DNA of 64,000 nucleotides from NCBI GenBank assembly GCA_023053545.1, contig JAKZAN010000078.1, positions 1 to 64,000 on the forward strand, written 5' to 3'. The stretch is from Lepidurus packardi. Its lineage: Eukaryota > Arthropoda > Branchiopoda > Notostraca > Triopsidae. The notes under the pieces are model-generated. The model was given only the letters and a program-made list of their open reading frames with translations. It ran no database searches and was not told the DNA's origin. Shown here piece by piece: positions 4,092 through 25,163 of this stretch. Position numbers and translations under genes: made by a program. Numbering within the stretch: position 1 is the stretch's first letter; the number at the start of each line of letters is the position of its first letter.

Positions 4092-4094
4092 AGT

Positions 4095-4958: not shown

Positions 4959-4964
4959 AAATAA

Positions 4965-5777
4965 TTAATTCCAACGGTTTGATTTGAATTGATTGTTCTT
5001 CCAAATCCACATCATTATAAACCCTACAATTGCACCTCCAATATGCGCAAAATGCGCAACACCTGAACTTCCTCCAAAAATAGATTTTCCTGAAACCCCT
5101 AAAAATAAATCGATTAGCAACAAACCAGGTACAAAATATTTGGCCTTAATGGGAACAGGTACAAAAATAAGCATTAGTCCTAGATTTGGAAACATAAAAG
5201 CAAAAGCCACTAACAACCCATATATTGCTCCAGAAGCACCAAGCATTGGCACTTGAATGTCTTGAGCTGCTCGAAACAATGCATTGAAATTTTGTTCGGT
5301 TAGCAAACCCACCTTATTACTAGCACGCAGCAAAGGTTCTATTTCTTTACCAAAAAGATCTTGTCGGTAATACGTCCCATCTGAAATAGTTGCGTTTAGA
5401 ATTTGATGCAATACGTCGGAAGGCAAGTTTAAAGTAGCTGCTGATTGAAGTGTTTGCTGCACTTCCCAGTAATTTATTCCCATTTGTAGCGCTGCGGCAC
5501 CAAGTCCGCAGGACACATAGAAAAACAAGAATTTTGAACCGCCCCACATTTGCTCCAATGCTGAACCAAAAGAATACAAAGCAAACATATTAAAGGCAAG
5601 ATGCATAATGCCACCGTGCATAAACATATGGGAAATGGGCTGCCAGGCTCGAAAGTAATTACTTTGAAACGAATACAAAGCAAAATATTCCAATGCTTGC
5701 GGCACTACTTGAGTACCGATAAAAAACAACACATTAATTATCAATAACTGCTTAACAGTTGGCGTGATATTCATCAT
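4965..5777 (-). CDS. Rhomboid family intramembrane serine protease
   Basis: A second rhomboid, 270 residues, with the serine motif GASGAIYGLLVAF and the histidine motif HFAHIGGAIVGF. The early HMFMHGGIMHLAFNM segment is the classic loop-helix of the family. An insertion of about 60 residues between the first membrane segments and the serine motif is soluble in character. The start overlaps the mutL stop by 4 bases (ATGA), which indicates translational coupling. Two adjacent methionines begin the frame and either could be used. The pairing of two rhomboids behind mutL is common in flavobacteria but no functional link is known. Confidence 0.93.
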   Translation of the reverse strand: MMNITPTVKQLLIINVLFFIGTQVVPQALEYFALYSFQSNYFRAWQPISHMFMHGGIMHLAFNMFALYSFGSALEQMWGGSKFLFFYVSCGLGAAALQMGINYWEVQQTLQSAATLNLPSDVLHQILNATISDGTYYRQDLFGKEIEPLLRASNKVGLLTEQNFNALFRAAQDIQVPMLGASGAIYGLLVAFAFMFPNLGLMLIFVPVPIKAKYFVPGLLLIDLFLGVSGKSIFGGSSGVAHFAHIGGAIVGFIMMWIWKNNQFKSNRWN

Positions 5778-7630: not shown

Positions 7631-7761
7631 TTGTGATTTTGATTGACTTTCAAAGTTACGCAATTTAATAAGAAACTGCGAACCCGAAAAAGGGGAAAAT
7701 ATTACAATTTATCTACACTTGATTTTCACTTTTATGGCTGAATTTAGTGCAGCGGTTTGAG

Positions 7762-7850
7762 TTAGGGATTGCAGTGGAAATCCTTTTTGCGACCTTTTGG
7801 GAGCAAAAAGATTGAAACGAAAAGCCCGACCCGCCTTTTTTTGGCGGGGA
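7762..7850 (+). repeat. Dispersed palindromic intergenic repeat, copy 1
   Basis: The mutL-ribH gap (7631-7855, where the two minus-strand genes are separated) holds copy 1 of a repeat found eight times in this window. Pattern: AGGGATTGCAGTGGAAATCC, then TTTTTGC...GCAAAAA as an inverted repeat, then GATTGAAACGAAAAGCCCG and a GC-rich tail that itself forms a small hairpin (CCGCC/GGCGG). Nothing else is apparent in this gap. Confidence 0.8.
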
Positions 7851-7855
7851 ACTCC

Positions 7856-8347
7856 CTAATTTGTTTTCTTGCGCAGGTTTGCCATTAGGATTGCGGCTAT
7901 TGCGGCTTCAGTGCCTTTGTTGCCGTGTTTACCGCCGCTTCGGTCGATTGATTGCTGCTCGTTGTTATCTGTTAAGAGGCAGAAAATTACAGGGACGTCG
8001 CCTTTAACGTTTAGGTCTTTGATGCCTTGTGTGACGCCTTCGCAGACATATTCGAAGTGCATGGTTTCGCCTTTAATGACGCAGCCGAGTGTGATTACTG
8101 CATCGACATTTTGGGTCTGGCTCATTTTTTTTGCGCCGTAAATAAGCTCAAAGCTTCCGGGAACGTCCCAGCGAATGATATTTTCGGGCAGGGCTCCGCA
8201 ATCTGTTAGCGCTGCGAAAGCGCCAGAAAAAAGGCCGTTCGTGATGTGGTCATTCCATGCAGAAACAACAATCCCAAACCGAAATTGCTTCGCGTTTGGG
8301 ATTGTTGTTTTATCGTATTCCGATAGATTCTTGTTAGCTGTAGCCAT
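7856..8347 (-). CDS. ribH: 6,7-dimethyl-8-ribityllumazine synthase
   Basis: RibH condenses 5-amino-6-ribitylamino-uracil with dihydroxybutanone phosphate in the penultimate step of riboflavin synthesis. It usually assembles into an icosahedral or pentameric particle. The 163-residue length is normal. Family motifs are VSAWNDHIT, WDVPGSFEL, the loop TLGCVIKGETMHFEYV containing the catalytic histidine, and the C-terminal GTEAAIAAILMANL. It lies 47 bases downstream of a TPR-protein gene on the same strand and is probably cotranscribed with it. I see no FMN riboswitch in front of it. Confidence 0.97.
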   Translation of the reverse strand: MATANKNLSEYDKTTIPNAKQFRFGIVVSAWNDHITNGLFSGAFAALTDCGALPENIIRWDVPGSFELIYGAKKMSQTQNVDAVITLGCVIKGETMHFEYVCEGVTQGIKDLNVKGDVPVIFCLLTDNNEQQSIDRSGGKHGNKGTEAAIAAILMANLRKKTN

Positions 8348-8394
8348 ACAATTCAGTACTTTATTTGGATTGCAAGTTGCCTTGCGTTTACTGA

Positions 8395-9177
8395 TTATTT
8401 CGCCGCAAGACCGATTAGCGCGTCGATGTTCATTGCCTCTGGCGCTGTTTCGTATTTGTCTTTAATTTCAGTGAAATATTTAGCTGCCTCTTCTTTTTGA
8501 CCTAATGCCAATGCAACTTGTCCTGCTTTTAGCAAGAAACGTGGCGATGTGAATTCGTTTTCGTTTGCTGAAGCTGCTTTTGTATAGTGCTCCAAAGCTT
8601 CTTTCAATTGATTTTTCTGTGCATAGCTGTCGCCGATTGCGCCGATTGCCAATACGCTTAAGAAAGTATCTTTTGAGTTGAATTTTTCCAAATGCGAGAT
8701 TGCGTCGTCAAATTTTCCGGTGTTTAGAAGTGAAATTCCTGCGTAGTAATGTGCAAGATTTCCAGCGTCTGTTCCTGAATATTCGTCGGCTATTTTTAGG
8801 AAACCAAACTTTCCTTCAGCACCATTCAGCGCAAGGTTGAAAAGTGAGTCACTTTTTACACCATCAACTGCTTGTTGAAAATTTTGTTGTGCGACAAACA
8901 TTTCGTCTGCAGCTTCGTTTTCTTTAGGCTCTACGATAAACCTTTGGTAAAGCAGGTATGCTACAGTTACTAACGCAATTGCAGAAAGTATGCCGATTAT
9001 ATATTTTTGATTTCTGGCTACCCATTCTTCCGTTTTAGAAGCACTCTCGTCCAATGAAGAAAAAACGCCTGCTGTTGTGCTGTCTTTTTCATCTACGTTG
9101 ATTGTGTCATCGATGAAATCTACATTTTCTTCTTTTTCCTTTGGAGTTCTATAACCTCTTTTATTGTACGTTGCCAT
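8395..9177 (-). CDS. Tetratricopeptide repeat membrane protein (YfgM-like)
   Basis: A 260-residue protein with a charged cytoplasmic N-terminus of about 58 residues, one membrane segment (IIGILSAIALVTVAYLLY, about 60-77) and a periplasmic region made of TPR-like helical pairs (LFNLALNGAEGKF, LAHYYAGISLLNTGKFDDA, GAIGDSYAQKNQLKEALEHY, LLKAGQVALALGQKEEAAKY). The layout resembles YfgM, an ancillary protein of the Sec translocon, but the function here is inference. It is the first gene of the pair with ribH. A -7 element lies at 9199-9206. Confidence 0.85.
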   Translation of the reverse strand: MATYNKRGYRTPKEKEENVDFIDDTINVDEKDSTTAGVFSSLDESASKTEEWVARNQKYIIGILSAIALVTVAYLLYQRFIVEPKENEAADEMFVAQQNFQQAVDGVKSDSLFNLALNGAEGKFGFLKIADEYSGTDAGNLAHYYAGISLLNTGKFDDAISHLEKFNSKDTFLSVLAIGAIGDSYAQKNQLKEALEHYTKAASANENEFTSPRFLLKAGQVALALGQKEEAAKYFTEIKDKYETAPEAMNIDALIGLAAK

Positions 9178-9198
9178 TTATTATAAATTAGTGAGCCG

Positions 9199-9206
9199 CA
9201 AAAATA
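9199..9206 (-). promoter_or_regulatory. -7 promoter element for the TPR-ribH unit
   Basis: Read on the minus strand this is TATTTTTG, a match to the Bacteroidota -7 consensus TAnnTTTG, 21 bases upstream of the TPR gene start. I see no clear -33 TTG at the usual distance, so the assignment is moderate. Confidence 0.45.
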
Positions 9207-9330
9207 AAATTTTTATTCATATCTAAAAGCCATTTTCCGCTATTTTTTCAATAATTTGCACCCGCTTTGAAATTGTACGGCATTAGCTTGCTAAAAAACC
9301 CCAAAGTTCTCAAAATCATAGGTCTTTCCG

Positions 9331-10410
9331 ATGTATTTAAAAAAGATTTCCCTTTTCAATTATAAGAATATTTCCGAGGCAAGTTTCGACTTCGACGACA
9401 AAATCAATTGTTTTGTGGGTCGCAACGGCATTGGCAAGACGAATATTTTAGACGCAATCTATAATTTGGCCAACGGAAAAAGTTATTTTAATCCTCTTGC
9501 TGTTCAGAACATCAGGCATGGCGAAGATTTTTTTGTAATTGATGGCCAGTTCACGAAAGATGGCAGGCAAGAAGAGATTGTTTGCAGTCTCAAAAAGGGC
9601 CAAAAGAAAATTTTGAAGCGAAATGGATCTGCTTATGATAAGTTTTCTGACCATGTTGGTTTTATACCGTTGGTGATTATTTCGCCGTCGGATCGTGACT
9701 TGATTACGGATGGCAGTGAAACCCGCCGAAGGTTTATTGACACTGTTATTTCGCAACTTGATGCTTTCTATTTGCAAGATTTGATTCAGTATCAAAAAGT
9801 GATTAGCCAGCGGAATGCTTTGTTGAAGTATTTTGCTGTGAACCGCACTTTTGATAAAGAAACACTCGAAATATACAATGAACAATTAGCCGCTTTGGGG
9901 CAGCCCATATTTGAAAAGCGAAAAAAATTCTTGGCCGATTTTGTGCCTATTTTTCACAAGCACCATCATGCAATTACTGATTCGGTTGAAGCCGTTGGCA
10001 TTCAGTATGAGTCGGATTTAAACACCGCTTCGTTGCCAGATTTATTACTGAAGAGTTTGGAGCGCGATAAAATCATGCAGTACACCACTGTTGGGATTCA
10101 TAAAGACGATCTGCTTTTCGAAATTGCCGGCTTTCCAATTAAAAAATTTGGCAGCCAAGGGCAACAAAAATCTTTTTTAATAGCCTTGAAACTGGCACAA
10201 TTTGAATTTGTGAAAAAGGGCAGCGGACAAAAACCGATTTTGCTTTTTGATGATATTTTTGATAAGCTGGACGAATTTCGCGTTTCGAAAATTGTTGAGA
10301 TGGTGAACAACGACGCTTTTGGGCAGTTGTTTATTTCGGATACGCATCCCGAACGAACAGAGCAAATTGTGAAATCGACCCACCAGACCTATAAAATATT
10401 TAACTTGTAA
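9331..10410 (+). CDS. recF: DNA replication/repair protein RecF
   Basis: RecF is an SMC-like ATPase that, with RecO and RecR, loads RecA at single-strand gaps. The 359-residue protein begins with the typical [14 protein letters not shown] and carries Walker [16 protein letters not shown] (about residues 31-45), the ABC-type signature [18 protein letters not shown] and Walker [14 protein letters not shown]. It is divergent from the TPR-ribH unit. The start is set by the conserved N-terminus. Family assignment is secure. Confidence 0.97.
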
Positions 10411-12916: not shown

Positions 12917-14011
12917 ATGTTGACTGTTATCTTATACATTTTTATCGCCGTTATTGCCATCCAGATTTTCTATTATTTGGGCATTTTTGGAAAGTTTTCA
13001 TTCGCTAAAATTACCGCACAGAATCCGAAGAGAATTCCTGTTTCGGTTATTGTTTGCGCTAAAAATGAAGCTGAGAACGTTTCGAAATTTATACCGTTAA
13101 TTGCGCAGCAAAATTATCCAGATTTTGAAATTGTCCTGATTGATGACGCATCGTCGGATGATACGCTTGAAATATTTGAAGCTTTCGAAAAGCAATACAA
13201 CAACGTCCGGCTGGTTAAAGTTGAAAATAACGAGGCCTTTTGGGGCAATAAAAAATTCGCTTTAACATTGGGTATCAAAGCTGCTAAAAACCCCTATTTG
13301 CTGTTCACCGACGCCAATTGCTATCCTACCTCAACTGATTGGATTAAGGAAATGACTGCAAACTTTACGCTAAAAAAGACGATCGTTCTCGGACACAATT
13401 CCTATACGAAGGATACAAAATCATTTTTGAACAAACTCATCCGTTTTGAAAATATGTTGGCCAGTCTGCAAAATCTTGCGTGGGCAAAAGCAGGAAAGCC
13501 ATTTCGCGGTGTTGGCTTAAATTTAGCCTATAAGAAAGATGAATTTTTTAAGGTTCGTGGTTATATGGATCACATGAAAATTCGAGTGGGCGACGATGAT
13601 TTGTTCGTCAATCAGGCGGCAACAGCTGAAAACACCACCATTTGCTTTTCACCCGTAAGTTTTACAATTGGAGAGCCTGCCAAAACATTAAAATCTTGGA
13701 TTGCTGCTAAAAAACTTCAGAAGAGCACGGCCTCAAATTATAAGACTTTCGACAAAGTTCAGCTGGCACTATTTTTTCTATCTCAGGTCTTATTCTTAAT
13801 ACTACCGATCGTGCTTTTAGCGTTTCAATTTCAATGGATTGTTGTCACCAGCCTTATTGCGTTCCGGTACATTTTTACTTGGATTACGCTTGGTTTCGCA
13901 GCTGGGAAATTGAAAGAAAAAGACGTGATGTACTGGTTTCCCTTTCTTGAAATTGCTTTGATTGTTTCGCAACTAAACTTTTACTTTTCAAAATCTGCTA
14001 CTTGGAAATAA
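12917..14011 (+). CDS. Glycosyltransferase family 2 membrane protein
   Basis: An inverting GT2 enzyme of 364 residues, placed in the inner membrane. An N-terminal membrane segment (LTVILYIFIAVIAIQIFYYLG) precedes the GT-A domain with ISVIVCAKNEAENV, the IVLIDDASSDDT nucleotide-sugar motif, and LLFTDANCYP, equivalent to the metal-binding DxD region. Two or three C-terminal hydrophobic segments follow. The start at 12917 is preferred over 12884 because the -7 promoter element ends at 12886. The acceptor cannot be read from sequence. The 3' end overlaps the sigma-factor start by 10 bases. Confidence 0.88.
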   Translation: MLTVILYIFIAVIAIQIFYYLGIFGKFSFAKITAQNPKRIPVSVIVCAKNEAENVSKFIPLIAQQNYPDFEIVLIDDASSDDTLEIFEAFEKQYNNVRLVKVENNEAFWGNKKFALTLGIKAAKNPYLLFTDANCYPTSTDWIKEMTANFTLKKTIVLGHNSYTKDTKSFLNKLIRFENMLASLQNLAWAKAGKPFRGVGLNLAYKKDEFFKVRGYMDHMKIRVGDDDLFVNQAATAENTTICFSPVSFTIGEPAKTLKSWIAAKKLQKSTASNYKTFDKVQLALFFLSQVLFLILPIVLLAFQFQWIVVTSLIAFRYIFTWITLGFAAGKLKEKDVMYWFPFLEIALIVSQLNFYFSKSATWK

Positions 14012-14562
14012 ACAAACATATAGCAAAAGCTCAAAATGGCGATCAAGTGGCATTCACCTTTTTGCTGGATCATTATTGGGCTGAAGTGTTTGGGTTTATT
14101 TTAAATCGCACGGAAAACGAAACAGATGCGGAAGACATTGCAATTGAAACTTTCGCAAAGGCATTCGACAAAATCGCAACTTACAATTCGGAATACCAGT
14201 TTAACACATGGCTAATCGCAATCGCGAAAAATGTGCACATTGACCTTTTGCGCAAGCGTAAAACAAGCGTTTTCGTCGAAATGAAGAATGCCGAAGAACA
14301 TCCTGCTTATGACATAGCCGACTCTACCCTATCGGCCGAAGATGAACTCATTCGCAAGCAGAATTTGGCCAGTCTGCTGAATTGCGTCAAACAGCTTAAA
14401 CCCAAATACCAAGAAGTGATCCAACTGCGGTACTTTCAAGAAATGAGCTACCAAGAAATCGCAGATGAACTGCAAGAACCATTGGGTAACGTGAAAATTA
14501 AACTGCTTAGGGCTAAAAATTTACTAGCTGAAATAATTGGTTTGATGTCGTCGAGGGCTTAA
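14002..14562 (+). CDS. RNA polymerase sigma factor, sigma-70/ECF family
   Basis: A 186-residue sigma factor of the ECF type. Region 2 is at about residues 10-85 (AFTFLLDHYWAEVFGF, DAEDIAIETFAKAFDKIATYN, NTWLIAIAKNVHIDLLRKR). Region 4 is at about 125-180 (YQEVIQLRYFQEMSYQEIADEL then a recognition helix). The start is TTG at 14002: there is no ATG in frame before the middle of the gene, and this start keeps all of region 2 and overlaps the glycosyltransferase stop by 10 bases. No anti-sigma gene is adjacent. Its last 324 bases, from 14239, are repeated at 23408-23731 on the far side of the RiPP island. Confidence 0.88.
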   Translation: MEINKHIAKAQNGDQVAFTFLLDHYWAEVFGFILNRTENETDAEDIAIETFAKAFDKIATYNSEYQFNTWLIAIAKNVHIDLLRKRKTSVFVEMKNAEEHPAYDIADSTLSAEDELIRKQNLASLLNCVKQLKPKYQEVIQLRYFQEMSYQEIADELQEPLGNVKIKLLRAKNLLAEIIGLMSSRA

Positions 14563-14608
14563 AGTCTTAAAGTCGTAATGTCATAATGTCTTAAAGTCCT
14601 GAAGTCAG
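14239..14608 (+). repeat. Left copy of the ~370-bp direct repeat flanking the island
   Basis: From ATTGACCTTTTGCGCAAGCG at 14239 the sequence matches 23408 onward. I count 8 mismatches over the 324 coding bases: six in the first ~110 bases and two near the stop. The match continues into the 8-bp-period AAAGTC array after the stop. The left copy is joined to an intact 5' half of the sigma gene. The right copy is not. Confidence 0.93.
14561..14608 (+). repeat. 8-bp-period AAAGTCNT array, copy 1
   Basis: Six consecutive 8-base units: AAAGTCTT, AAAGTCGT, AATGTCAT, AATGTCTT, AAAGTCCT, GAAGTCAG. The array starts in the sigma-factor stop codon. Similar arrays lie at 23730-23777 and 35813-35844. Confidence 0.85.
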
Positions 14609-14631
14609 ACAAGACAAGAAAACACTAAAAG

Positions 14632-15915
14632 TTACCTTTTAAAAACATCACGAAATTGATATAACAAACGCTCAATTAAACGTAAATCCTCTGTTACTAT
14701 GTCAGCAGTCCCAGACATTTCTTGCTGAAAAGATATTTGTTTTTTATACGAAGTATTTAACCCATCGGGTAAGGAAACATTAATCAATAAATTACCGTCT
14801 TTGTCAGGTGTTAAAGAAATTGCATTTATAGTACCTTTAATTATTCCAAATTCTCTGTCAGGATAATTTGCCAATCTAATATTAACCGTTTGCCCAATTT
14901 TTATTTTACCAGAATTTTGAGCAGGAGCTTTTACTTTACCAATATAATCGCTTTCATTTGTGGGAATTATGGCAAATACATTGTCGCCAGCATTTACGGT
15001 TTGATTTTCTGCCCACAGTTGTAAAAAACTAACTTTCCCATCAATCGACGAACGTAAAACATAGTTTAACTCCCAATCTTTAATCGCTTTTTTAAGCCCG
15101 TAAAAAGATTGAATCACATTGCGTTCTAAGTTTGCGTTCTCTTTATTTTCGTTTATTTGGGTAGTTTTGCTATTTTTATTGAGTTCGTTTAATGATGATT
15201 TTAAAGTAGAAATGGTACTCAACAAACCCTTATAATTTCGTTCAACTTGAAGATAGGTAAGTTTGTGTTTTTCTAATTCCTGAGCTGCAATAATGCCTTT
15301 TTTGAACAATCCATCATATCGTTCTAAATCACCTTTCTGCAAAGCCAATTCACTTTGATTATTACTCTTTTGTGATTCTAACAAACTTAATCGTTCTTTC
15401 AGTTGCGTGGCTTCATAACTTTGTGCCGTTCCTTCCACTTGATACGGTTGTAATTTAGAATTTAAATCATCGGCTATACTTTCTTTTTGAAACACAGCAA
15501 AGAAACTTTCTATTTCTCCCAATTGGGCCGATTTTAATTTATCAAACGGGAACTTTTTTTTATCAATATCAATGCTATCTACGATGCTTTTCAATATAAA
15601 AACATCTTTATAATTGGCAGAATTTTCAATAACCGCGAGCGGTGTGTTTTTAGAAATAAGCATTCTATCTTTTACTAAAATTGCTTCAATTTTACCAGGT
15701 ACTTTTGCAACTAATTTTTCTGGCGGAATATGGGTTGTAATCACAATTTGTGTGGTAATTACATCGGGATATTTTATAAACCATGAAATTAAAAGCAACA
15801 CTACAATAAAACCAAATAATATGGTATTACCCCATCTTAATATAGCTTTTGGTGGGTCGGATAAAATATCTCTAACTTCATCACTATAAATTTTTATTTC
15901 GCAAAATTCTTCCAT
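14632..15915 (-). CDS. HlyD-family periplasmic adaptor of the peptide exporter
   Basis: A 427-residue membrane-fusion protein that would link the inner-membrane peptidase-ABC exporter to a TolC-type outer-membrane channel. It has a short cytoplasmic N-terminus, one membrane segment (about 32-47, ILFGFIVVLLLISWFI), a long helical hairpin (about 130-265, including ESQKSNNQSELALQKGDLER) and the biotinyl-lipoyl/beta-barrel half (DGKVSFLQLWAENQTV). It is the last gene of the minus-strand island operon, 47 bases after the exporter gene. No TolC homologue is in the island, so the channel must come from elsewhere in the genome. Confidence 0.92.
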   Translation of the reverse strand: MEEFCEIKIYSDEVRDILSDPPKAILRWGNTILFGFIVVLLLISWFIKYPDVITTQIVITTHIPPEKLVAKVPGKIEAILVKDRMLISKNTPLAVIENSANYKDVFILKSIVDSIDIDKKKFPFDKLKSAQLGEIESFFAVFQKESIADDLNSKLQPYQVEGTAQSYEATQLKERLSLLESQKSNNQSELALQKGDLERYDGLFKKGIIAAQELEKHKLTYLQVERNYKGLLSTISTLKSSLNELNKNSKTTQINENKENANLERNVIQSFYGLKKAIKDWELNYVLRSSIDGKVSFLQLWAENQTVNAGDNVFAIIPTNESDYIGKVKAPAQNSGKIKIGQTVNIRLANYPDREFGIIKGTINAISLTPDKDGNLLINVSLPDGLNTSYKKQISFQQEMSGTADIVTEDLRLIERLLYQFRDVFKR

Positions 15916-15962
15916 GGTAGTATATAAATTCTGTACTGTAAAATAAAATTTTATTTAAGTTA

Positions 15963-18155
15963 TTAGTTACCAAGTTCCAATTGATTCTTTACTAACTGAT
16001 AATACTTACCTCTAATCTTTGTTAATTCTTCATGATTTCCTTGTTCGACAATTTCTCCATTTTCCAGAACTATAATATTATCTGCATTTTTTACTGTTGA
16101 TAAACGATGCGCTACAATTATCGCTGTTTTATGTTTTATAAATGAATTTAAGTTATCCATAATCACTTTTTCGTTATTTGCATCAAGAGCAGAAGTTGCT
16201 TCATCAAAAAAAACATAGAAAGGATTTTTGTAAACTGCTCTTGCAATCATTATACGTTGCTCTTGTCCACCACTAAGTCTTATCCCTGATGTACCTAATT
16301 CCGTATTGTATTTATTTGGTAGTTTTTCAATAAATTCATCCATATTGGAAACAAAGGATGCGTCTTTTAATTTTTGTCTATCTATTATTTCGTTTTGTTC
16401 GGATTCAGAAATATTTCCTGCTATAGTATCATTAAAAATGAAAGTGTCTTGCATAACAGCACCACAGTTCATTCTCCAAAAATCATTGTTGATGTTATTT
16501 AAATCAATTGAGCCAATAGCGATTGAACCTTTAGTTGGTTCATAAAATTTCAACAACAACTTTAGCAATGTAGTTTTACCACTTCCGCTAGCACCGACAA
16601 TGGCTGTGGTTTTTCCTTGTGGTAGCGTACAGTTAATGTTTTTTAGAACAAAAGGCGTAGATTTTCCACCATATCTAAAGGATAAATCTTTTAACACAAT
16701 AGTTTTATCTTCTGAAATCTCTTTTACTTTATTGGATTTTAATTCGTCTTCATCTTCTCTTTCATGAACTTGTGACAACCGTTCTAAACTTATTTTTGCA
16801 TCTTGCCAAGTTTGTATAAATGCCACAAAGTTTCCTAAAGGTAAATTTAACTGGCCTACAATATATTGAATAGATGTCATCATCCCTAATGTCAAATTAC
16901 CATCAACGACAGCCGTTGCAGACAAAAAGATAATAATAATATTTTTTAGTTCATTAATAAAGCTAGCACCTGTTGTTTGATACTGTGCTAATTTTAATGT
17001 GCTTAAAGAGGTTTTAAATAAACTGATTTGAGTATATTCCCACTTCCAACGATTCTTTCTTTGAGAATTATTTATTTTAATTTCTTTAACTCCATTAATT
17101 ATTTGAACTAAATTAGTTTGACTTTGCGATTGTTCATCAAATCGTTTATAATCAAGTTCAGCTCTTTTTTTCAAAAAGAAAAAAGTCCAACCAACATAAA
17201 ATATAGCAGAAATTATAAATACTAAAAAAATCTTAAAATTGTAATAAGCTAAAATCCCATTAAAAACCACAAATGTTATTAATGAAAAAATCATGTTCAA
17301 CGATGAAGATGAAACAAAGTTTTGAATTCTTATATGGTCATTAACCCTTTGTAAATGTTCTCCTGTATTTCTAGTTTCAAAATAAGATATAGGTAGCTTA
17401 AGCATTTTAAGCAAAAAATCAGAAACCATTTTTATGTTAAAACGGCTGGTTATATGTATTAATAGCCAATCTCTAAAAATACCAACTAAAGTTTGAGAAA
17501 ATATCAAAACTAACTGCGATATTAATATCAAATAGATGAAAGGTATGTCGCGATTATTTACCCCAACATCAACCACAGTTTGCATCAAAAAAGGTAGGAT
17601 AAATTGAATAATACTTGCAACAATTAACCCAATAAAGACTTGTCTAATTAATTTAGAGTACGGTTTAAAATAAGGTATCAAAAATTTAAAACCTTTTCTT
17701 CTGGATTTATCTTCTTCTAAGAAAAAAAACTTGCTGTTCGGTTCTAAAATAAGCACAAAACCCGTTCCATCATCAGTATTTGTCCAAGCATTATGAAAAT
17801 CTTCATGGGAATAGCTTAACAATCCTTGTGCAGGATCAGCAACATAAATCTTCGTATTAGTAGTTTTATAAACTACTACAAAATGTTTTTGTCTCCAAGG
17901 CACTATAAAAGGTGTTGGTGCTTCATTCACTAAACTTTCCAATCCAACCCGCATCCCTAAAGTACGCATTTCGATAGCTTCTGCGGCTTCAGCAATACCA
18001 GCCATTGTGACGCCTGTCTTAGTAATACTTGCCTTATCTCTTAAAAACTCTCTTGAAAAAGTTTTACCATAATGCTTTGCTATCATCCTTAAACAAGTTG
18101 GACCACAATCTCTGTGGTCCAATTTTCTGTAGTGCGGGAAATCTTCTTTTAACAT
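15963..18155 (-). CDS. C39 peptidase-containing ABC transporter (PCAT) for a double-glycine peptide
   Basis: A 730-residue exporter that cleaves double-glycine leaders and exports the peptide. The N-terminal C39 cysteine-protease domain has all three catalytic residues: Cys17 in HRDCGPTCLRM, His91 in KHFVVVYK and Asp107 in VADPAQG. A membrane domain with about six segments covers roughly 160-430. The nucleotide-binding domain has Walker A GASGSGKT at 521-528, signature LSGGQ at 627-631, DEATSALD at 651-658 and the switch His683. Both the protease and the ATPase therefore look active. It fits the leader of the small precursor at 22454-22618, which ends in Gly-Gly. It starts 3 bases after the amidohydrolase gene. 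Confidence 0.95.
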   Translation of the reverse strand: MLKEDFPHYRKLDHRDCGPTCLRMIAKHYGKTFSREFLRDKASITKTGVTMAGIAEAAEAIEMRTLGMRVGLESLVNEAPTPFIVPWRQKHFVVVYKTTNTKIYVADPAQGLLSYSHEDFHNAWTNTDDGTGFVLILEPNSKFFFLEEDKSRRKGFKFLIPYFKPYSKLIRQVFIGLIVASIIQFILPFLMQTVVDVGVNNRDIPFIYLILISQLVLIFSQTLVGIFRDWLLIHITSRFNIKMVSDFLLKMLKLPISYFETRNTGEHLQRVNDHIRIQNFVSSSSLNMIFSLITFVVFNGILAYYNFKIFLVFIISAIFYVGWTFFFLKKRAELDYKRFDEQSQSQTNLVQIINGVKEIKINNSQRKNRWKWEYTQISLFKTSLSTLKLAQYQTTGASFINELKNIIIIFLSATAVVDGNLTLGMMTSIQYIVGQLNLPLGNFVAFIQTWQDAKISLERLSQVHEREDEDELKSNKVKEISEDKTIVLKDLSFRYGGKSTPFVLKNINCTLPQGKTTAIVGASGSGKTTLLKLLLKFYEPTKGSIAIGSIDLNNINNDFWRMNCGAVMQDTFIFNDTIAGNISESEQNEIIDRQKLKDASFVSNMDEFIEKLPNKYNTELGTSGIRLSGGQEQRIMIARAVYKNPFYVFFDEATSALDANNEKVIMDNLNSFIKHKTAIIVAHRLSTVKNADNIIVLENGEIVEQGNHEELTKIRGKYYQLVKNQLELGN

Positions 18156-18158
18156 ACG

Positions 18159-19463
18159 TTAATTTTTTTTCAATAAAATAGAAGCTGTTAAATCATTTAA
18201 CTTCTTTTTATCTAAATAATTATTGTTGTAAAATATACCTTCTATTTTTTCTAAAGTTTCAATTTTTTCTAGCGGGTTTTCGGTAACTATTAAAAAATCA
18301 GCTTTTTTGCCAACTTCAATACTGCCTATTGTTGTATCATTGAAATAATTTGCAAAATTTACTGTACCAGCTTTTAGGATATCATAATTAGACAATCCTG
18401 CTTTTTTATACAACTTTATTTCATCCATCATACCAAATCCTGGTATTATAAATTTTGAACTACTATCAGGACTTAATAATAACTTAACACCATCTTTATT
18501 TAGTCTATTTATTACCAATAATCTTTCGTCAATTTCTTTTGCATAAAAATCAATTTCTTCCTTCAATGCTTTTTCACCCATTTTCTCTCTATATTTCACC
18601 GTTTTATCGACCCATTCAGTAACAATTTTGGAATCAATATACTCGATCCCTTTTTGCTTTTGAATGGTTTTTATATCAAATTGTCCATATGCAATTTCGT
18701 ACCATCTTAAAGTTGGACATGAAAAAATATTTTTATCTTTCATTAATCTAATCCTAGACTCGAAAGTAGTCGGATCACCAACTAAACCACCTAGATGTTC
18801 TATTGAGTTTAAATTTGAATTAAAAATAATGTCATCTGCAATAACTAGCCCTTTTGGATCGCTTGGGAAATGCCCAGCCATTTTTATATTATTTTCTTTG
18901 CATAGTTTATCAAGCTGTATAAATACGTTTTGATTTTTCACACTTAAAACTTTGATAAAATCAAAGCTACTTTCTTTAAAATGCTTTACATATTCTGACA
19001 ATTGCTCATTTGTAACATCTTGACTTCGATGAATTGGTGTTGCTGATAAATACATTTTTGGAAATAAACTTGTTGCAGTATTGTATTTCCTTCTCCATTC
19101 AAGATGATTATCATCTCCTCGCATAGAACGCAGTTTTGTTACACCACTAATGAGATTTAGGATTAAATATTTTTCCAAATCTTTTTCTTCATCAGGTAAA
19201 TGTACATGAGCATCACCTAAAGCAGGTAAAATAAATTTTCCTTTACAATCTATTATTTTTGTAGCTGCAAAACTCCCTTTTTTTGAATCAACAACATCAA
19301 TAATTTTACCATCTTTAATGGCAATGTCTTTGTTCTTTAATATAATATCGGTTTTCATAGAGACAATAGCAACATTTGTCATTAAATAGTCAATTACTTT
19401 TTTTTGTGAGAATAAAAATTGTGTTGATAATAATCCAACAAATAATAAAAAATATTTTTTCAT
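18159..19463 (-). CDS. Exported amidohydrolase-superfamily protein
   Basis: A 434-residue metal-dependent hydrolase of the amidohydrolase superfamily. It opens with a signal peptide (KKYFLLFVGLLSTQFLFSQ), so it should act outside the cytoplasm. Metal-binding positions are visible: DAHVHL, AGHFPSD, SIEHLGG and the aspartate in LLSPDSSS. The C-terminal strand IGSIEVGKKADFLIVTENP is typical of the superfamily. It sits 5 bases after the HExxH-like gene and 3 bases before the exporter, so it belongs to the operon. Possible roles are trimming or ring-opening of the exported peptide, or self-protection; none can be told from sequence. Bottromycin clusters also contain an amidohydrolase, but a cytoplasmic one. 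Confidence 0.85.
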   Translation of the reverse strand: MKKYFLLFVGLLSTQFLFSQKKVIDYLMTNVAIVSMKTDIILKNKDIAIKDGKIIDVVDSKKGSFAATKIIDCKGKFILPALGDAHVHLPDEEKDLEKYLILNLISGVTKLRSMRGDDNHLEWRRKYNTATSLFPKMYLSATPIHRSQDVTNEQLSEYVKHFKESSFDFIKVLSVKNQNVFIQLDKLCKENNIKMAGHFPSDPKGLVIADDIIFNSNLNSIEHLGGLVGDPTTFESRIRLMKDKNIFSCPTLRWYEIAYGQFDIKTIQKQKGIEYIDSKIVTEWVDKTVKYREKMGEKALKEEIDFYAKEIDERLLVINRLNKDGVKLLLSPDSSSKFIIPGFGMMDEIKLYKKAGLSNYDILKAGTVNFANYFNDTTIGSIEVGKKADFLIVTENPLEKIETLEKIEGIFYNNNYLDKKKLNDLTASILLKKN

Positions 19464-19468
19464 AGTGT

Positions 19469-20602
19469 TTAAAATTTAAAAAATCCTTGTTGGTCTTTTT
19501 TATAAAATTCTTCAATAGGGTTTAAAACGCAAAAATCATCATATCTAAAATCTAAATCAACACTACTAATATCAAAAAATGTTAATAATTTCTTATATTT
19601 AATTAAAATGATTGCGCATTTCGTGTCTAATTCTTTATAAAATTTTTTACCCTTTTCAGTAAAAACTTCATCAAAATTTAATAATTCAAGTCCTGATCTA
19701 AATCGACCAAACTGATCAGTCATACGTCCTAGTAGCTCGTGTTTTTCTTTTCCAGAAAAAACGTTTTTTGATAAAAGAATATCAAAACATTCAACTCTCT
19801 TAGTTACGGTATATAAGCCATGATATGCCCCATAAATATTTCTATAATCCCATTCTTGGCTTGTGTAATCTTTCATAATAAGATTGTCAACGTCTATTTT
19901 AAAATAATCTTTTCGATTGTGTATTACATAATAGAAAAAATTATGTGAACCCTGATGTATTAATTCTTCTAAAAAGTAAATGACATTATTTTCTCCTAAA
20001 ACATAAAAATAAAGCATTCCAAGTGTTTCAATAGAAGTGAAATTTAATATTTTAGGATTGTCATGTAAGTATATTTTCCTGTTTGCAAAACTTAAATCAT
20101 TATAAAAATTCGGAAGATGCTTTTTTATAATATCAATTGTATTCGAGAGCTCTTTATAATTTGCTTTCCAAACGGATTGATGTTTTGGAAATTCATCCAC
20201 AACTTGACCTTTATAATATTCTTGGAAGTATCGTTCAAGTACTGGATGAATTTCTTTTACTATTTCAAATCTATCGATTTTTAAAATTGTATCGTGTTGA
20301 ATTGAGTATCCTTTTTTAAAATAACCAATATTTGGCAAATAAGCTATTTCATTTTTATTATATGAAAAGTCGAAAACAAACTTTTGTTTTTCCATAAAAT
20401 ACCCTTGAAGTATTTCTACGAGTATATTAGAAGAAAATAAATTATCTTTTTTTGAATTAAAATAGGCAAATACTAAAGGTTCTAAAAAAACAACATCATC
20501 TTCAAAATCTATATTTTCGAATAAAGATGGATTCTCCTTATAGATTAGTAATTTTATTGTGTTTATTACTTCAATTTGATTTGTACTAATTATATTTTGC
20601 AT
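19469..20602 (-). CDS. HExxH-type peptide hydroxylase-like protein (variant HQGSH)
   Basis: A 377-residue cytoplasmic protein that I cannot place with certainty. Residues 185-270 resemble the alpha-ketoglutarate HExxH-type peptide beta-hydroxylase family. A segment NFTSIETLGMLYFYVLG precedes LEELIHQGSH, where HQGSH (216-220) occupies the HExxH position. Then WDYRNIYGAYHGLYTVTKRV (251-270) matches the later Arg/Gly/His/Arg-Val block of that family. If right, it would hydroxylate a core residue such as Asp, Asn or His. The usual Glu is Gln here. Its start overlaps the ThiF gene by 13 bases, which ties it to the same product. The N-terminal 150 residues match nothing I know. The family call is inference. 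Confidence 0.5.
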   Translation of the reverse strand: MQNIISTNQIEVINTIKLLIYKENPSLFENIDFEDDVVFLEPLVFAYFNSKKDNLFSSNILVEILQGYFMEKQKFVFDFSYNKNEIAYLPNIGYFKKGYSIQHDTILKIDRFEIVKEIHPVLERYFQEYYKGQVVDEFPKHQSVWKANYKELSNTIDIIKKHLPNFYNDLSFANRKIYLHDNPKILNFTSIETLGMLYFYVLGENNVIYFLEELIHQGSHNFFYYVIHNRKDYFKIDVDNLIMKDYTSQEWDYRNIYGAYHGLYTVTKRVECFDILLSKNVFSGKEKHELLGRMTDQFGRFRSGLELLNFDEVFTEKGKKFYKELDTKCAIILIKYKKLLTFFDISSVDLDFRYDDFCVLNPIEEFYKKDQQGFFKF

Positions 20603-21600
20603 ACTCCACAGTCGTCATTACATTTAATTAATAAATTTTCAGTTGTTAATGTTAGTGGATTTAAAACTATCATTCTTCCAATTGTTTGACAATATTGAAA
20701 TTGTTCTAAAAGAAAAAAAAGTATTTCTTTAAAGATTAAAGATGACAAAATATTGATATTAAATGAAATTGATGGATGAAAAATATATTCCCCAAAAATT
20801 CTTTCAAAATGCTCTATTTTATAGTGCTCTCCATACATATTCTTTGCGTAATTTGATAAAAATTCATTACATGAAGTTATTGTTGGAACATATAGAGGTC
20901 CTATTTTTATCATTTCATAGGAATAAGCCATCATGATGTAAGGTATTTTATTTCTAAAGCATATCTCGTTTAAATTTGTTAAGAACAATCCTTTTGGATC
21001 ACAGGCTTTAACAATAAAGTCAGGTTTTATCTTTGTAATTATGCTTTTTAATTCCTCTTTCTTTAATAAGTTATCATTGTGGATATCAATGTTTATAGAA
21101 AAATTCTGTTTTACTTTCCTTTTCAAAGATTCTATTTTTTTATAGCCAATATCAGATTTGTCAAAAGTCATAACCCTAAATAAATCGGTTTCTTCTACAT
21201 CGTCAAAATCAACTACATGTATGTTCTTAAATCCAAATTGAGCCAAAAGATATATCAATGTGCTTCCTCCAGCTCCAGCTCCAAATATTAATATTTTCTT
21301 TTCTTTTGCAATATCACTATTGTCAACTCCTAATAAATAGTTCAAATACAGTTCACTTCTCACTTTAGATGAAATGTTAAGATTTTCAATGAATCCTCTT
21401 TCGTTTAATTCATTGAAGGGATATTTCCCTAAATCCTCTCTAAAAAGTCCATTCCTTAGCATTTTTTCTAAAAGAATGTAATTTTCTGAATTATTTTCAA
21501 TTTCTAAATATTTATCTTCATTACCTACAAAGCCAATACATATCTTGTTTAATGCTTTGTATATTGTGATATATTTTTTGAAATAATATTTATTTTCCAT
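20590..21600 (-). CDS. ThiF/E1-like adenylyltransferase with RRE-like N-terminus
   Basis: A 336-residue enzyme of the ThiF/MoeB/E1 superfamily, which adenylates carboxylates using ATP. The nucleotide-binding loop is FGAGAGGST (106-114), followed by VVDFDDVEETDLFR (129-142), with Asp132 and the family arginine Arg142, and ACDPKG carrying a later aspartate. The first ~95 residues look like three strands plus helices with an acidic loop (IGFVGNEDKYLEIE), the layout of a RiPP recognition element that binds leader peptides. The C-terminus has Cys327, Cys331 and Cys334, half of a possible zinc site. No YcaO partner is present. Stand-alone E1-like enzymes are known from microcin C7 (MccB) and pantocin A (PaaA). 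It overlaps both neighbours. Confidence 0.85.
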   Translation of the reverse strand: MENKYYFKKYITIYKALNKICIGFVGNEDKYLEIENNSENYILLEKMLRNGLFREDLGKYPFNELNERGFIENLNISSKVRSELYLNYLLGVDNSDIAKEKKILIFGAGAGGSTLIYLLAQFGFKNIHVVDFDDVEETDLFRVMTFDKSDIGYKKIESLKRKVKQNFSINIDIHNDNLLKKEELKSIITKIKPDFIVKACDPKGLFLTNLNEICFRNKIPYIMMAYSYEMIKIGPLYVPTITSCNEFLSNYAKNMYGEHYKIEHFERIFGEYIFHPSISFNINILSSLIFKEILFFLLEQFQYCQTIGRMIVLNPLTLTTENLLIKCNDDCGVCKI

Positions 21601-22396
21601 TTAAAAACAAATTAACTTTTTGTTTATAGTAATCTAAATTGTTTGTACCATTTAATATACTTAAATGATTGCCCTCATATACTGCTAAACTCCTTTTTAT
21701 ATTATTCTGTATTACAATGTTTTGTGCATCATCAATGTTAGTAATATCATCTTTGTTCGCAACAAAAATTAAGATTTTGGCTTTAATAAAACTCCACTTT
21801 TTCGGTAAATCATATTTTTTATTTACAATTACTACTTTCTTCTTTATATCTTTTAGTCTTTCTACAATGTCAAGTATATTATAAACACAACCTTCAGCTA
21901 TTATGTATTCAACTTTTTCTTGTTGTACAGCAATTGTGGTTAAAATAGTTCCCATAGATAGAGAAACAATTCCAATCTTTTTTACTTTTAATTCTTTTGT
22001 GCAATAAGTAATTATGTTCTCCAAGTCTACAGCAAATTCATCATAAAAAAGCATGTTTTGATTAATTGAAAATGGCGAGCTTTTCCCAAAGCCTCTATAA
22101 TCAAAGGAAACAACTCTAAACCCAAGTTTTGTGTAAAAATCAATATACGGTAAATAATAAGACATATTACCATAATCTCCGTACGCAAGTATAATTGTTT
22201 TATGTTTTTTACTATTAGATAAGTTTACTTTAGGTTGAGAAATCCAAACACATATTTCTGCACTGCCAGTTTTTATAATTTTTTCCTGATACTCAATATC
22301 ATATTCTTTTGGTGTTGATATGTAGTCTTTTTTTGGATTAATTCCAAAACAAGACACCTTATATAAAATAAATACTAAAACTAATTTCACTTTCAT
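21590..22396 (-). CDS. Exported alpha/beta hydrolase
   Basis: A 268-residue serine hydrolase-like protein with an N-terminal signal-like segment (MKVKLVLVFILYKVSCFG). The lipobox is poor, so a plain signal peptide is the better reading. The fold is visible as TIILAYGDYGNMSYYLPYID, VVSFDYRGFGKS, the nucleophile elbow SLSMG (the first glycine of GxSxG is Ser), the acid in NKDD and the histidine in YEGNHLS. It is the first enzyme gene after the precursor and terminator and overlaps the ThiF gene by 11 bases. Role unknown: it could process the exported peptide or confer immunity. Confidence 0.8.
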   Translation of the reverse strand: MKVKLVLVFILYKVSCFGINPKKDYISTPKEYDIEYQEKIIKTGSAEICVWISQPKVNLSNSKKHKTIILAYGDYGNMSYYLPYIDFYTKLGFRVVSFDYRGFGKSSPFSINQNMLFYDEFAVDLENIITYCTKELKVKKIGIVSLSMGTILTTIAVQQEKVEYIIAEGCVYNILDIVERLKDIKKKVVIVNKKYDLPKKWSFIKAKILIFVANKDDITNIDDAQNIVIQNNIKRSLAVYEGNHLSILNGTNNLDYYKQKVNLFLNGK

Positions 22397-22407
22397 ATTT
22401 AAAGTGT

Positions 22408-22446
22408 AAAAAAAATACTGTCCAGAAAGTAATTTCCGAACAGTAT
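22408..22446 (-). terminator. Intrinsic terminator/attenuator between precursor and enzyme genes
   Basis: On the minus strand ATACTGT (22446-22440) pairs with ACAGTAT (22421-22415), extended by GGAAA/TTTC inside the loop, and is followed by a run of about eight T. It lies 7 bases after the precursor stop and ends before the hydrolase start at 22396. Partial read-through would give more precursor mRNA than enzyme mRNA. Confidence 0.75.
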
Positions 22447-22453
22447 CTAAAAA

Positions 22454-22618
22454 TTATATATTATCACAAATGATAATACGTACATCTTTCGGAGGGTTAC
22501 AATACTTGTCATGACAAGCAGCTTCTAAACCGCCTGAAATTGTTCCCAATAGCTCTTCTGAAGCAATTGCTTGTGCTCTTTCTTTTAGGGCATCTAAACT
22601 TAATTTTTCTGTTTTCAT
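22454..22618 (-). CDS. RiPP precursor peptide with double-glycine leader
   Basis: A 54-codon frame. It starts with MKTEKLSLDALKERAQ, a polar helical leader, and runs to EELLGTISGG at residue 30, a canonical double-glycine cleavage site for C39 peptidases. The 24-residue core begins LEAACHDKYC and continues NPPKDVRIIICDNI to the stop. It has three cysteines (core positions 5, 10 and 21), two prolines and four acidic residues. The adjacent C39 exporter supports its export. The odd cysteine number and the lack of a lanthipeptide synthetase argue against a lanthipeptide. It is the first gene of the minus-strand operon, 84 bases downstream of a good promoter and followed by a terminator. I found no obvious second copy. 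Confidence 0.85.
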   Translation of the reverse strand: MKTEKLSLDALKERAQAIASEELLGTISGGLEAACHDKYCNPPKDVRIIICDNI

Positions 22619-22701: not shown

Positions 22702-22735
22702 CAAATATAACAATAGTAAGAATATTTCTACAAAA
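22702..22735 (-). promoter_or_regulatory. Promoter of the RiPP operon
   Basis: On the minus strand TTTTG (22735-22731), a 21-base spacer, then TATATTTG (22709-22702), an excellent match to the Bacteroidota -33/-7 consensus. Transcription would start near 22695, giving a leader of about 77 bases before the precursor ATG. Confidence 0.7.
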
Positions 22736-22881: not shown

Positions 22882-23256
22882 ATGCACGAAAAATTAAAAG
22901 AAGCTAGGGTCTCGAAAGGGTATTCACAGGGAAGATTTTCAGAGGCAATTGCCATGGAACAGACTACCTATTCAAGAAAAGAAAGAGGAAAGTCTTCTAT
23001 AACAGAAGATGAATGGGAAAGATTTGCAAAGGTTCTTGAAGTGCCTAAAGATGAGATAAAAGAAGAAAAGCAACTGAGTGCAAAGAACGAAAACTGCTCG
23101 TTTTCAGACCAAGCAGTTGGCATTCAGTTTGTAAACATTCAACAATCTGTTCTTGATACAGTATTAAAATACAATCAAAAATTAGAAGAAGAAAATGTTT
23201 TTCAAAAACAAGAGATAGCACGGTTAAATAAGGAAATGACGTCGCTCAAAGGTTAG
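22882..23256 (+). CDS. XRE-family helix-turn-helix regulator
   Basis: A 124-residue protein. The N-terminal 65 residues form a Cro/CI-type helix-turn-helix (LKEARVSKGYSQGRFSEAIAMEQTTYSRKERGKSSI). The C-terminal part, about 85-120, is a predicted coiled coil (LDTVLKYNQKLEEENVFQKQEIARLNKEM), probably for dimerisation. It is divergent from the RiPP operon, with a 263-base shared regulatory region. This suggests control of the cluster, its own gene, or both. Codon use is as AT-rich as the island. Downstream, 23257-23407 holds no gene that I can support. Confidence 0.88.
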   Translation: MHEKLKEARVSKGYSQGRFSEAIAMEQTTYSRKERGKSSITEDEWERFAKVLEVPKDEIKEEKQLSAKNENCSFSDQAVGIQFVNIQQSVLDTVLKYNQKLEEENVFQKQEIARLNKEMTSLKG

Positions 23257-23407: not shown

Positions 23408-23731
23408 ATTGACCTTTTGCGCAAGCGTAAAAGAAGCGTTTTCGTCGAAATGAAGAATGCCGAAGAACATCGTGCTTATGACGTAGCCGACACGACGCTA
23501 TCGGCCGAAGATGAACTCATTCGCAAGCAGAATTTGGCCAGTCTGCTGAATTGCGTCAAACAGCTTAAACCCAAATACCAAGAAGTGATCCAACTGCGGT
23601 ACTTTCAAGAAATGAGCTACCAAGAAATCGCAGATGAACTGCAAGAACCATTGGGTAACGTGAAAATTAAACTGCTTAGGGCTAAAAATTTACTGGCTGA
23701 GATAATTGGTTTGATGTCGTCGAGGGCTTAA
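23408..23731 (+). pseudogene. 3' remnant of the sigma-factor gene
   Basis: This encodes the last ~107 residues of the sigma factor at 14002-14562, from IDLLRKRKR through region 4 to LMSSRA and the stop. It lacks the first 79 residues, hence nearly all of region 2, and has no credible start; the TTG at 23417 is internal. It is nearly identical to the intact copy, with 8 mismatches, clustered at the 5' end. The reading frame is still open, so the duplication is recent or maintained by gene conversion. It cannot encode a working sigma factor. Confidence 0.92.
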
Positions 23732-23777
23732 AGTCGTAACGTCATAAAGTCGTAATGTCGTAAAGTCCTGAATGCAG
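23730..23777 (+). repeat. 8-bp-period AAAGTCNT array, copy 2
   Basis: Six units after the sigma remnant stop: AAAGTCGT, AACGTCAT, AAAGTCGT, AATGTCGT, AAAGTCCT, GAATGCAG. The unit order differs from copy 1 although the flanking coding DNA is almost identical, so the array changes faster than its surroundings. Confidence 0.85.
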
Positions 23778-23796
23778 AAAAGACTTTACGAACAAT

Positions 23797-24245: not shown

Positions 24246-24274
24246 TTGTCCATTGTCATTTATCGTTATCTTTG
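24246..24274 (+). promoter_or_regulatory. lipA promoter
   Basis: TTG at 24246, an 18-base spacer, then TATCTTTG at 24267-24274, a good -33/-7 pair. The transcript would start near 24281, which rules out the in-frame ATG at 24246 and fixes the lipA start at 24294. Confidence 0.7.
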
Positions 24275-24293
24275 TAGACCTAAAAATTCCAAA

Positions 24294-25163
24294 ATGGAAA
24301 GCATCTTAGACAATAATACGACTGTGGCTAAGCCGAAATGGCTGAAAGTGAAACTGCCGATTGGACAGAAATATACTGAACTTCGCGGTTTGGTGGACAA
24401 ATATAAATTGAACACGATTTGCACCTCTGGCAGCTGTCCGAATATGGGCGAATGCTGGGGCGAAGGCACTGCGACTTTCATGATTTTGGGTAACATTTGC
24501 ACGCGTTCATGTGGTTTTTGTGGCGTAAAAACTGGTCGGCCAGAAACGGTGGATTGGGATGAGCCGGAAAAAGTGGCGCGTTCGATTAAGATTATGAACA
24601 TCAAGCATGCTGTTGTGACGAGCGTTGACCGTGATGATTTGAAGGATATGGGTTCGATTATTTGGATTGAAACCGTGAAGGCGATTAGAAGAATGAATCC
24701 GGAAACGACTTTGGAAACTTTGATTCCTGACTTTCAAGGAATTGAACGTCATTTGGATCGCATAGTGGAAGCCAATCCTGAAGTAGTTTCGCACAATATG
24801 GAAACCGTTCGAAGGTTGACGCGTGAAGTGCGAATTCAAGCAAAATATGACCGCAGTTTAGCTGTTTTGAAATACTTAAAAGACAAAGGCATTAACCGAA
24901 CAAAATCTGGTATCATGCTTGGATTGGGCGAAACGGAAGAAGAAGTAATCCAAACCATGCGCGATTTGCGGGATGCGAACGTTGATGTTGTGACGATTGG
25001 GCAGTACTTGCAACCAAGTAAAAAACACTTGCCGGTGAAGGAGTTTATCACGCCAGATCAGTTCAAAAAATATGAAACAATCGGACTCGAAATGGGTTTC
25101 AGACATGTTGAAAGTGGTGCTTTAGTGCGCAGTTCATATAAAGCACAAAAACACATTTTATAA
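24294..25163 (+). CDS. lipA: Lipoyl synthase
   Basis: LipA is a radical-SAM enzyme that inserts two sulfurs into octanoyl groups on E2 and GcvH proteins. In the 289-residue protein the auxiliary cluster ligands are Cys43, Cys48 and Cys54 ([13 protein letters not shown]), and the radical-SAM ligands are Cys69, Cys73 and Cys76 (CTRSCGFC). Later motifs include [24 protein letters not shown] and the C-terminal ALVRSSYKA, which supplies the serine ligand. Translation from 24294 gives the normal family N-terminus. gap follows after 19 bases. Confidence 0.97.

Follow-up and report, generated by a model that had tools for sequence, protein, structure and literature searches.

The window considered here, a stretch of 64,000 nucleotides (positions 1 to 64,000 of contig JAKZAN010000078.1 in the Lepidurus packardi assembly GCA_023053545.1), carries a compact gene cluster that appears to be of a Flavobacterium type and to belong to the double-glycine (GG) class of ribosomally synthesized and post-translationally modified peptides (RiPPs), with a small secreted peptide as its predicted product. 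Seven minus-strand open reading frames (ORFs) across 14632-22618 are confirmed at the positions reported in a preliminary description of the locus, which had also rightly called them tightly packed, as they are separated by gaps of 57, 5, 3 and 47 bases or overlap by 11 and 13 bases. They encode a 54-aa precursor peptide (22454-22618), an alpha/beta hydrolase (21590-22396; Pfam Hydrolase_4, 1.6e-8), a ThiF/E1-like adenylating enzyme (20590-21600; ThiF PF00899, 3.6e-26), a 377-aa HQxxH oxygenase with the fold of alpha-ketoglutarate-dependent HExxH (aKG-HExxH) enzymes (19469-20602), an amidohydrolase (18159-19463; Amidohydro_1, 2.6e-12), a C39 peptidase-ATP-binding cassette (C39-ABC) exporter (15963-18155; Peptidase_C39, 4.8e-31) and a HlyD-type adaptor (14632-15915; HlyD_3, 1.5e-15). 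The Pfam searches match the expected families for ThiF, C39-ABC, HlyD, amidohydrolase and alpha/beta hydrolase. The 377-aa protein, which is assigned by fold and conserved residues, is matched by neither Pfam nor NCBIfam at E ≤ 1; the precursor has no Pfam family and a single NCBIfam match at chance level. Among the seven proteins there is no class-defining YcaO, lanthipeptide or radical S-adenosylmethionine (SAM) enzyme and no MNIO.

The precursor comprises the leader MKTEKLSLDALKERAQAIASEELLGTISGG (residues 1-30, ending ISGG) followed by the core LEAACHDKYCNPPKDVRIIICDNI (residues 31-54), which contains a Cys35-His36 (CH) site near its start and Cys51-Asp-Asn-Ile54 (CDNI) at its C-terminus. 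With a conserved short GG precursor encoded together with a C39-ABC gene, both the 54-residue double-glycine peptide and the RiPP-type cluster proposed in the preliminary description are borne out.

Relatives of the oxygenase (E ≤ 1e-10) are present in 21 of 398 sampled genomes of the genus and 9 of 397 of the family, giving 29 genomes in total with one counted in both samples, while ThiF is found in 2 of 398 genus genomes (E ≤ 1e-30) and 1 of 395 order genomes (E ≤ 1e-25), only the best candidates being scored. One locus from each of the 29 oxygenase genomes, together with the window, gives the 30 loci compared here. A GG precursor is encoded in 26 of them, the window included, and mostly adjoins the oxygenase gene (in G089 the nearest precursor lies about 2.9 kb away); the four loci left out for want of a precursor are G392, at the end of a short contig, G176, and G320 and G100, where a second look again found none. 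All 34 peptides of the 26 loci have CH, with the Cys 5 to 10 residues past GG, as do all of the best 120 listed among 612 profile matches in the protein database; since the precursor profile was built from eight peptides that all have CH, three of them ending in CDNI, neither count is independent of it. Tails reading CDNI, CDNV or CYNI occur in 22 of these 120 listed precursors, and Cys precedes DNI or DNV in 21 of 21 such tails. A second recurrent tail, VKDNIPTWP..., which shares DNI with the ThiF-type tail, is seen in non-CDNI precursors (P0233, P0252, P0277 and similar) and may mark another accessory enzyme. Near the F. soyae cluster a different small GG-containing peptide with a KGG site is encoded (L001:4509-4673, minus strand).

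A cluster ThiF is found in only 3 of the 30 oxygenase loci, namely the window, F. soyae (L001/L071) and G338 (L048). The precursors of all three end in CDNI, in comparison to none in the 23 precursor-bearing loci without a cluster ThiF (Fisher p 0.0004). Here, G742 is counted as lacking a cluster ThiF: its ThiF profile match (L051, 16543-17001) lies about 7 kb past the precursor, with the cluster at 3351-9566, and scores 54.8 bits against about 490 for the F. soyae ThiF; counted the other way, the comparison becomes 3/4 versus 0/22 (p 0.0015). Because CDNI tails are confined to the ThiF loci among these 26 and CH is kept throughout, sequence comparison assigns CH to the oxygenase and CDNI to ThiF, so that a conserved peptide site of its own goes with each enzyme, a pairing absent from the preliminary description. 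The fixed ThiF/HExxH pair envisaged there is ruled out by the 3/30 count; instead, the oxygenase, present in 29 genomes, forms the core of the family, to which ThiF is added where the precursor has a C-terminal CDNI. In the protein database, four ThiF proteins can be assigned to the presumed genome of a listed precursor, each to that of a CDNI one. In Tenacibaculum mesophilum, ThiF and oxygenase bear the consecutive names BACY1_15440 and BACY1_15450, and their genes are therefore probably neighbours. Since the precursor and both enzymes recur together in other genomes, as the neighbourhood search shows, their association goes beyond chance; the small ORF is conserved and neither enzyme matches an unrelated non-peptide family with a strong score. 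Some loci carry CAAX-type proteases, tetratricopeptide repeat (TPR) proteins or aspartyl-protease-like proteins instead of other window genes. Plasmids yielded no oxygenase relative and only partial ThiF matches, all below 60% identity and none covering 80%, and viral contigs yielded one distant oxygenase relative.

The HExxH-hydroxylase-like assignment of the 377-aa protein stands with regard to its fold, which in predicted-structure comparisons matches aKG-HExxH peptide hydroxylases over most of the chain, and to weak family matches to TIGR04267, but not with regard to its motif, which is HQGSH. The conserved residues are H216-Q217-x-x-H220 and H261, all three His being kept in 33-34 of 36 family sequences. 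HQxxH is present in 27 of the 30 loci, HExxH in two (G089, G176) and a motif-less 178-aa fragment in one (G295), so that Gln replaces the HExxH Glu in nearly all relatives checked. The curated cut-off of TIGR04267 is 40 bits; five of the 36 family members match this model at E ≤ 0.05, the best of them with 19.6 bits (E 7.1e-4), and the window protein itself has no match to it. The HExxH structures were not recovered when the PDB was searched with a sequence profile. The protein database yielded 272 relatives, of which the best 120 were listed. The gene is split in G521, and tandem copies occur in G397 (L052), G576 (L063) and G656 (L064), one copy of each pair lacking HxxxH; catalytic and non-catalytic pairs are possible. 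A correspondence between two CH sites and two oxygenase copies fits G576 and G656, yet the second copy there lacks HxxxH and G397 combines two copies with single-CH precursors, and the idea was dropped as evidence. Characterised aKG-HExxH hydroxylases (TIGR04267; the ChlB HExxH domain, 8s5f; SjiH, 22ob; PflC/PosC) likewise show two His plus a distant His and have a RiPP precursor next door. The window protein differs from them by HQxxH, by sub-cut-off TIGR04267 scores in its family and by the Cys-His substrate motif after GG, and its cluster in that none of the seven proteins is a radical SAM or MNIO enzyme.

The ThiF protein is MccB-like over its full length in predicted-structure alignments, with MccB and PaaA as the closest folds, in agreement with the kinship proposed for it beforehand. 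Its R142, K155 and D201 align with R157, K170 and D214 of MccB; G107, G109, G112, K155 and D201 are invariant in 47 of 47 relatives, and position 142 is R or K in all 47, so that both the domain and the ATP-site residues of an MccB-type RiPP adenylyltransferase are present. The N-terminus, described beforehand as RRE-like, has no Pfam match in residues 1-90, whereas its predicted strand-helix order and an alignment to MccB and PaaA that starts at residue 3 would fit such a domain. AclA of Tenacibaculum (9egb) is another ThiF-type structure in these comparisons, for which the literature search yielded no linked paper. PaaA of pantocin A reportedly acts on the side chains of Glu residues within an internal motif and is not known to have an oxygenase partner, both unlike the window cluster. 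With MccB of microcin C7, the window enzyme shares the fold, the N-terminal domain included in the match, the ATP-site Lys and Asp and the C-terminal Cys motif. The MccB substrate, however, is a heptapeptide (PMC6495379) ending in Asn, in contrast to a 54-aa precursor with a GG leader that ends in Ile, and the window adds a C39 exporter and an oxygenase partner. The streptococcal and enterococcal ThiF-like RiPP cyclases IndF and EnfB are described as acting on a C-terminal Ile; IndF links it to a Trp three residues upstream, an i to i+3 closure with the spacing of Cys51-Ile54 (PMC12150305, PMC12250964). The likeness is one of description; their nucleophile is a Trp indole or backbone N instead of the Cys thiol proposed here, and phylum, leader and cluster differ. 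GrcB of the GRC RiPPs is described as ThiF-like, with an N-terminal RiPP recognition element (RRE) and a thiolactone product, although the linkage is Glu35-Cys39 with Cys last, and it has radical SAM partners (PMC12250964), unlike the window cluster.

The two hydrolases both have hydrophobic N-termini and, judged by eye from these, are probably exported. The alpha/beta hydrolase has an SLSMG nucleophile elbow; it exceeds the Pfam cut-off for Acyl_transf_2, and its best NCBIfam matches, homoserine lactonase and LuxD, are far below cut-off. Its relatives are found in 4 of the 30 loci, comprising all three ThiF loci and the ThiF-less G320 (L057), where the gene overlaps that of the oxygenase and neither ThiF nor precursor was found; action on a thiolactone is speculation. 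The amidohydrolase has an HxH motif at 86-88 and relatives in 9 of 30 loci. As seven of these nine have no cluster ThiF, the bottromycin clusters invoked in the preliminary description offer no help, and the seven window proteins include no YcaO. C39 relatives are present in 23 of 30 loci, two of the seven misses (G338, G295) being on short contigs, and the exporter is expected to cut after GG.

Gene content, folds, conserved residues and the link of each enzyme to a conserved peptide site come from the data themselves, whereas the reactions, with their order, the bond made and the role of the product, are inferred as follows. Two enzymes would act on the precursor in the cytoplasm, one at each end of the core. 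The HQxxH protein would be a mononuclear iron, alpha-ketoglutarate-dependent oxygenase that modifies Cys35-His36. Since characterised relatives of its fold are described as beta-hydroxylating Asp and His, besides hydroxylating Gln and cleaving the backbone (PMC12636437), His36 is the likeliest target, most likely by beta-hydroxylation, with Cys chemistry as the main rival. ThiF-like RiPP enzymes are described as adenylating a carboxylate that is then attacked by a nucleophile (PMC12150305). Here, ThiF and ATP would adenylate the C-terminal carboxylate of Ile54; as a Cys three residues before the C-terminal Ile is kept in all listed DNI/DNV tails and matches the IndF spacing, a four-residue thiolactone is proposed, in which the Cys51 thiol attacks the adenylate to close a Cys-Asp-Asn-Ile ring of 13 atoms. 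The C39 exporter and HlyD adaptor would then cleave after Gly30 and secrete the product, and the amidohydrolase and alpha/beta hydrolase would trim it or turn it over outside. For the 24-residue core, the calculated monoisotopic masses are 2742.329 when linear, 2724.319 as the thiolactone, 2758.324 when hydroxylated and 2740.313 with both changes, the last coinciding with a disulfide (-2.016). Compared with the adenylation, hydroxylation and export scheme drawn up beforehand, the RiPP nature, the MccB/PaaA-like ThiF and the kind of hydroxylase are retained, and the fixed pair, the HExxH Glu and the bottromycin comparison are given up.

Taken as a whole, with the oxygenase at Cys35-His36, ThiF at the C-terminus and subsequent C39 export, this scheme has about an even chance of being right. 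Several points weigh against it. ThiF is carried by three genome loci only, one of the four database pairings of ThiF with CDNI also fits a non-CDNI precursor, and two CDNI precursors pair with an oxygenase but no listed ThiF (same genomes presumed in both cases). The CH counts share the dependence on the profile, the motif is HQGSH with all five TIGR04267 matches below cut-off, and the metal ligands are read from conservation and are absent as such from the model. The place of Cys51 as partner in the ThiF reaction could be taken by Asp52, Asn53 or Cys35, the exported hydrolase nearby may make a thiolactone short-lived, and the product and activity of the cluster are predictions from sequence and models.

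The strongest competitor, which has roughly one chance in three, is that the HQxxH protein alters the Cys and not the His, through a Cys-His cross-link, Cys oxidation or PflC-like oxidative backbone cleavage. Cys and His are both invariant in the 34 peptides, PflC/PosC of the same enzyme kind are described as cleaving backbones, and a Cys-Tyr cross-link by an alpha-ketoglutarate enzyme is cited (PMC12636437); set against this, the only other reactions that this source names for the fold are hydroxylations, of Gln and, at the beta position, of Asp and His. Somewhat less probable is that ThiF acts on the C-terminus to give another product, such as a microcin C-like nucleotide adduct, a pantocin-like Asp/Asn cyclisation, an amide or a large ring to Cys35. 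This is consistent with the MccB and PaaA folds and with Asp52 and Asn53 in the conserved tail, but MccB is described as acting on a C-terminal Asn (PMC12150305), which here is penultimate with Ile last, the Cys before DNI/DNV is invariant, and Cys35 is present also where ThiF is absent. It is improbable that the HQxxH protein is an inactive relative that hands the precursor on to other enzymes, with ThiF making the main change to the peptide here and little modification taking place elsewhere: the Glu-to-Gln replacement, the HxxxH-less copies in three loci and the split gene point that way, yet loss of a protease-type Glu is compatible with an oxygenase, the three His are retained, and in L043 and L051 the stretch from precursor to exporter contains, among the listed ORFs, just those of the oxygenase and amidohydrolase. 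That the small ORF simply encodes a class II-type bacteriocin or a signal, the enzymes serving another pathway, is very unlikely: its GG leader and C39 exporter would fit, but 26 of 30 loci combine the enzyme with this leader and CH site, and the precursor tail goes along with ThiF.

A divergent XRE-type regulator (22882-23256, plus strand) adjoins the precursor; with the window included, 6 of 26 loci have a similar divergent regulator no more than 2.5 kb from the precursor. At 22702-22709 (minus strand), 91 bases upstream of the precursor ATG, stands TATATTTG, which resembles the flavobacterial -7 promoter box, TAnnTTTG. Staphylococcal autoinducing peptides (AgrD/AgrB) are thiolactones between a Cys and the C-terminal carboxylate, the same sense as proposed here. 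Their ring has five residues according to PMC12250964, in comparison to four proposed here with, if the proposal is right, an ATP-using E1-like maker. A secreted, XRE-controlled signal that is the Gram-negative counterpart of these peptides, with an E1-made CDNI thiolactone and, at the other end, a Cys-His pair oxidised by the HQxxH iron oxygenase, is a tentative and rather doubtful reading. The cluster is bracketed by 377-bp direct repeats (14239-14615 and 23408-23784, plus strand; 360/377 bases identical) that correspond to the 3' end of an extracytoplasmic function (ECF) sigma-70 gene: the left copy covers the end of the intact gene (14002-14562) plus a tail, the right one a partial sigma-factor ORF only. 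With a GC content of 28.4%, against 39.8% in the rest of the window, the cluster looks like a recently acquired islet, and the repeats suggest insertion by duplication or through a circular intermediate. A radical SAM gene (24246-25163), with an additional sub-cut-off match to the lipoyl synthase N-terminal family, lies outside the repeats. The assembly (108.6 Mb, 344 contigs) had no relatives in the prokaryote genome collection; its description mentions introns and exons, and the window thus seems to come from a bacterial contig, of a contaminant or an associate, inside a eukaryote assembly.

Each enzyme kind is known in RiPPs. In the literature searched, mostly open-access, no paper joins HExxH, ThiF and RiPP or treats this cluster, and neither the enzyme combination nor the HQxxH variant nor the pairing of CH and CDNI sites was met in the parts covered. 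ThiF-like ligases and HExxH-type oxygenases, whose roles in RiPPs are both still under study, here come together on a single peptide that offers each a conserved site of its own, and if the oxygenase joins Cys to His, a new cross-link would be added. The natural comparison of 3 with 23 loci predicts which enzyme acts where, and the chemistry of the combination is now directly testable. As the family is large (612 precursor and 272 oxygenase relatives) and the oxygenase and precursor of the window lie essentially outside Pfam and NCBIfam, it could be mined as a set.

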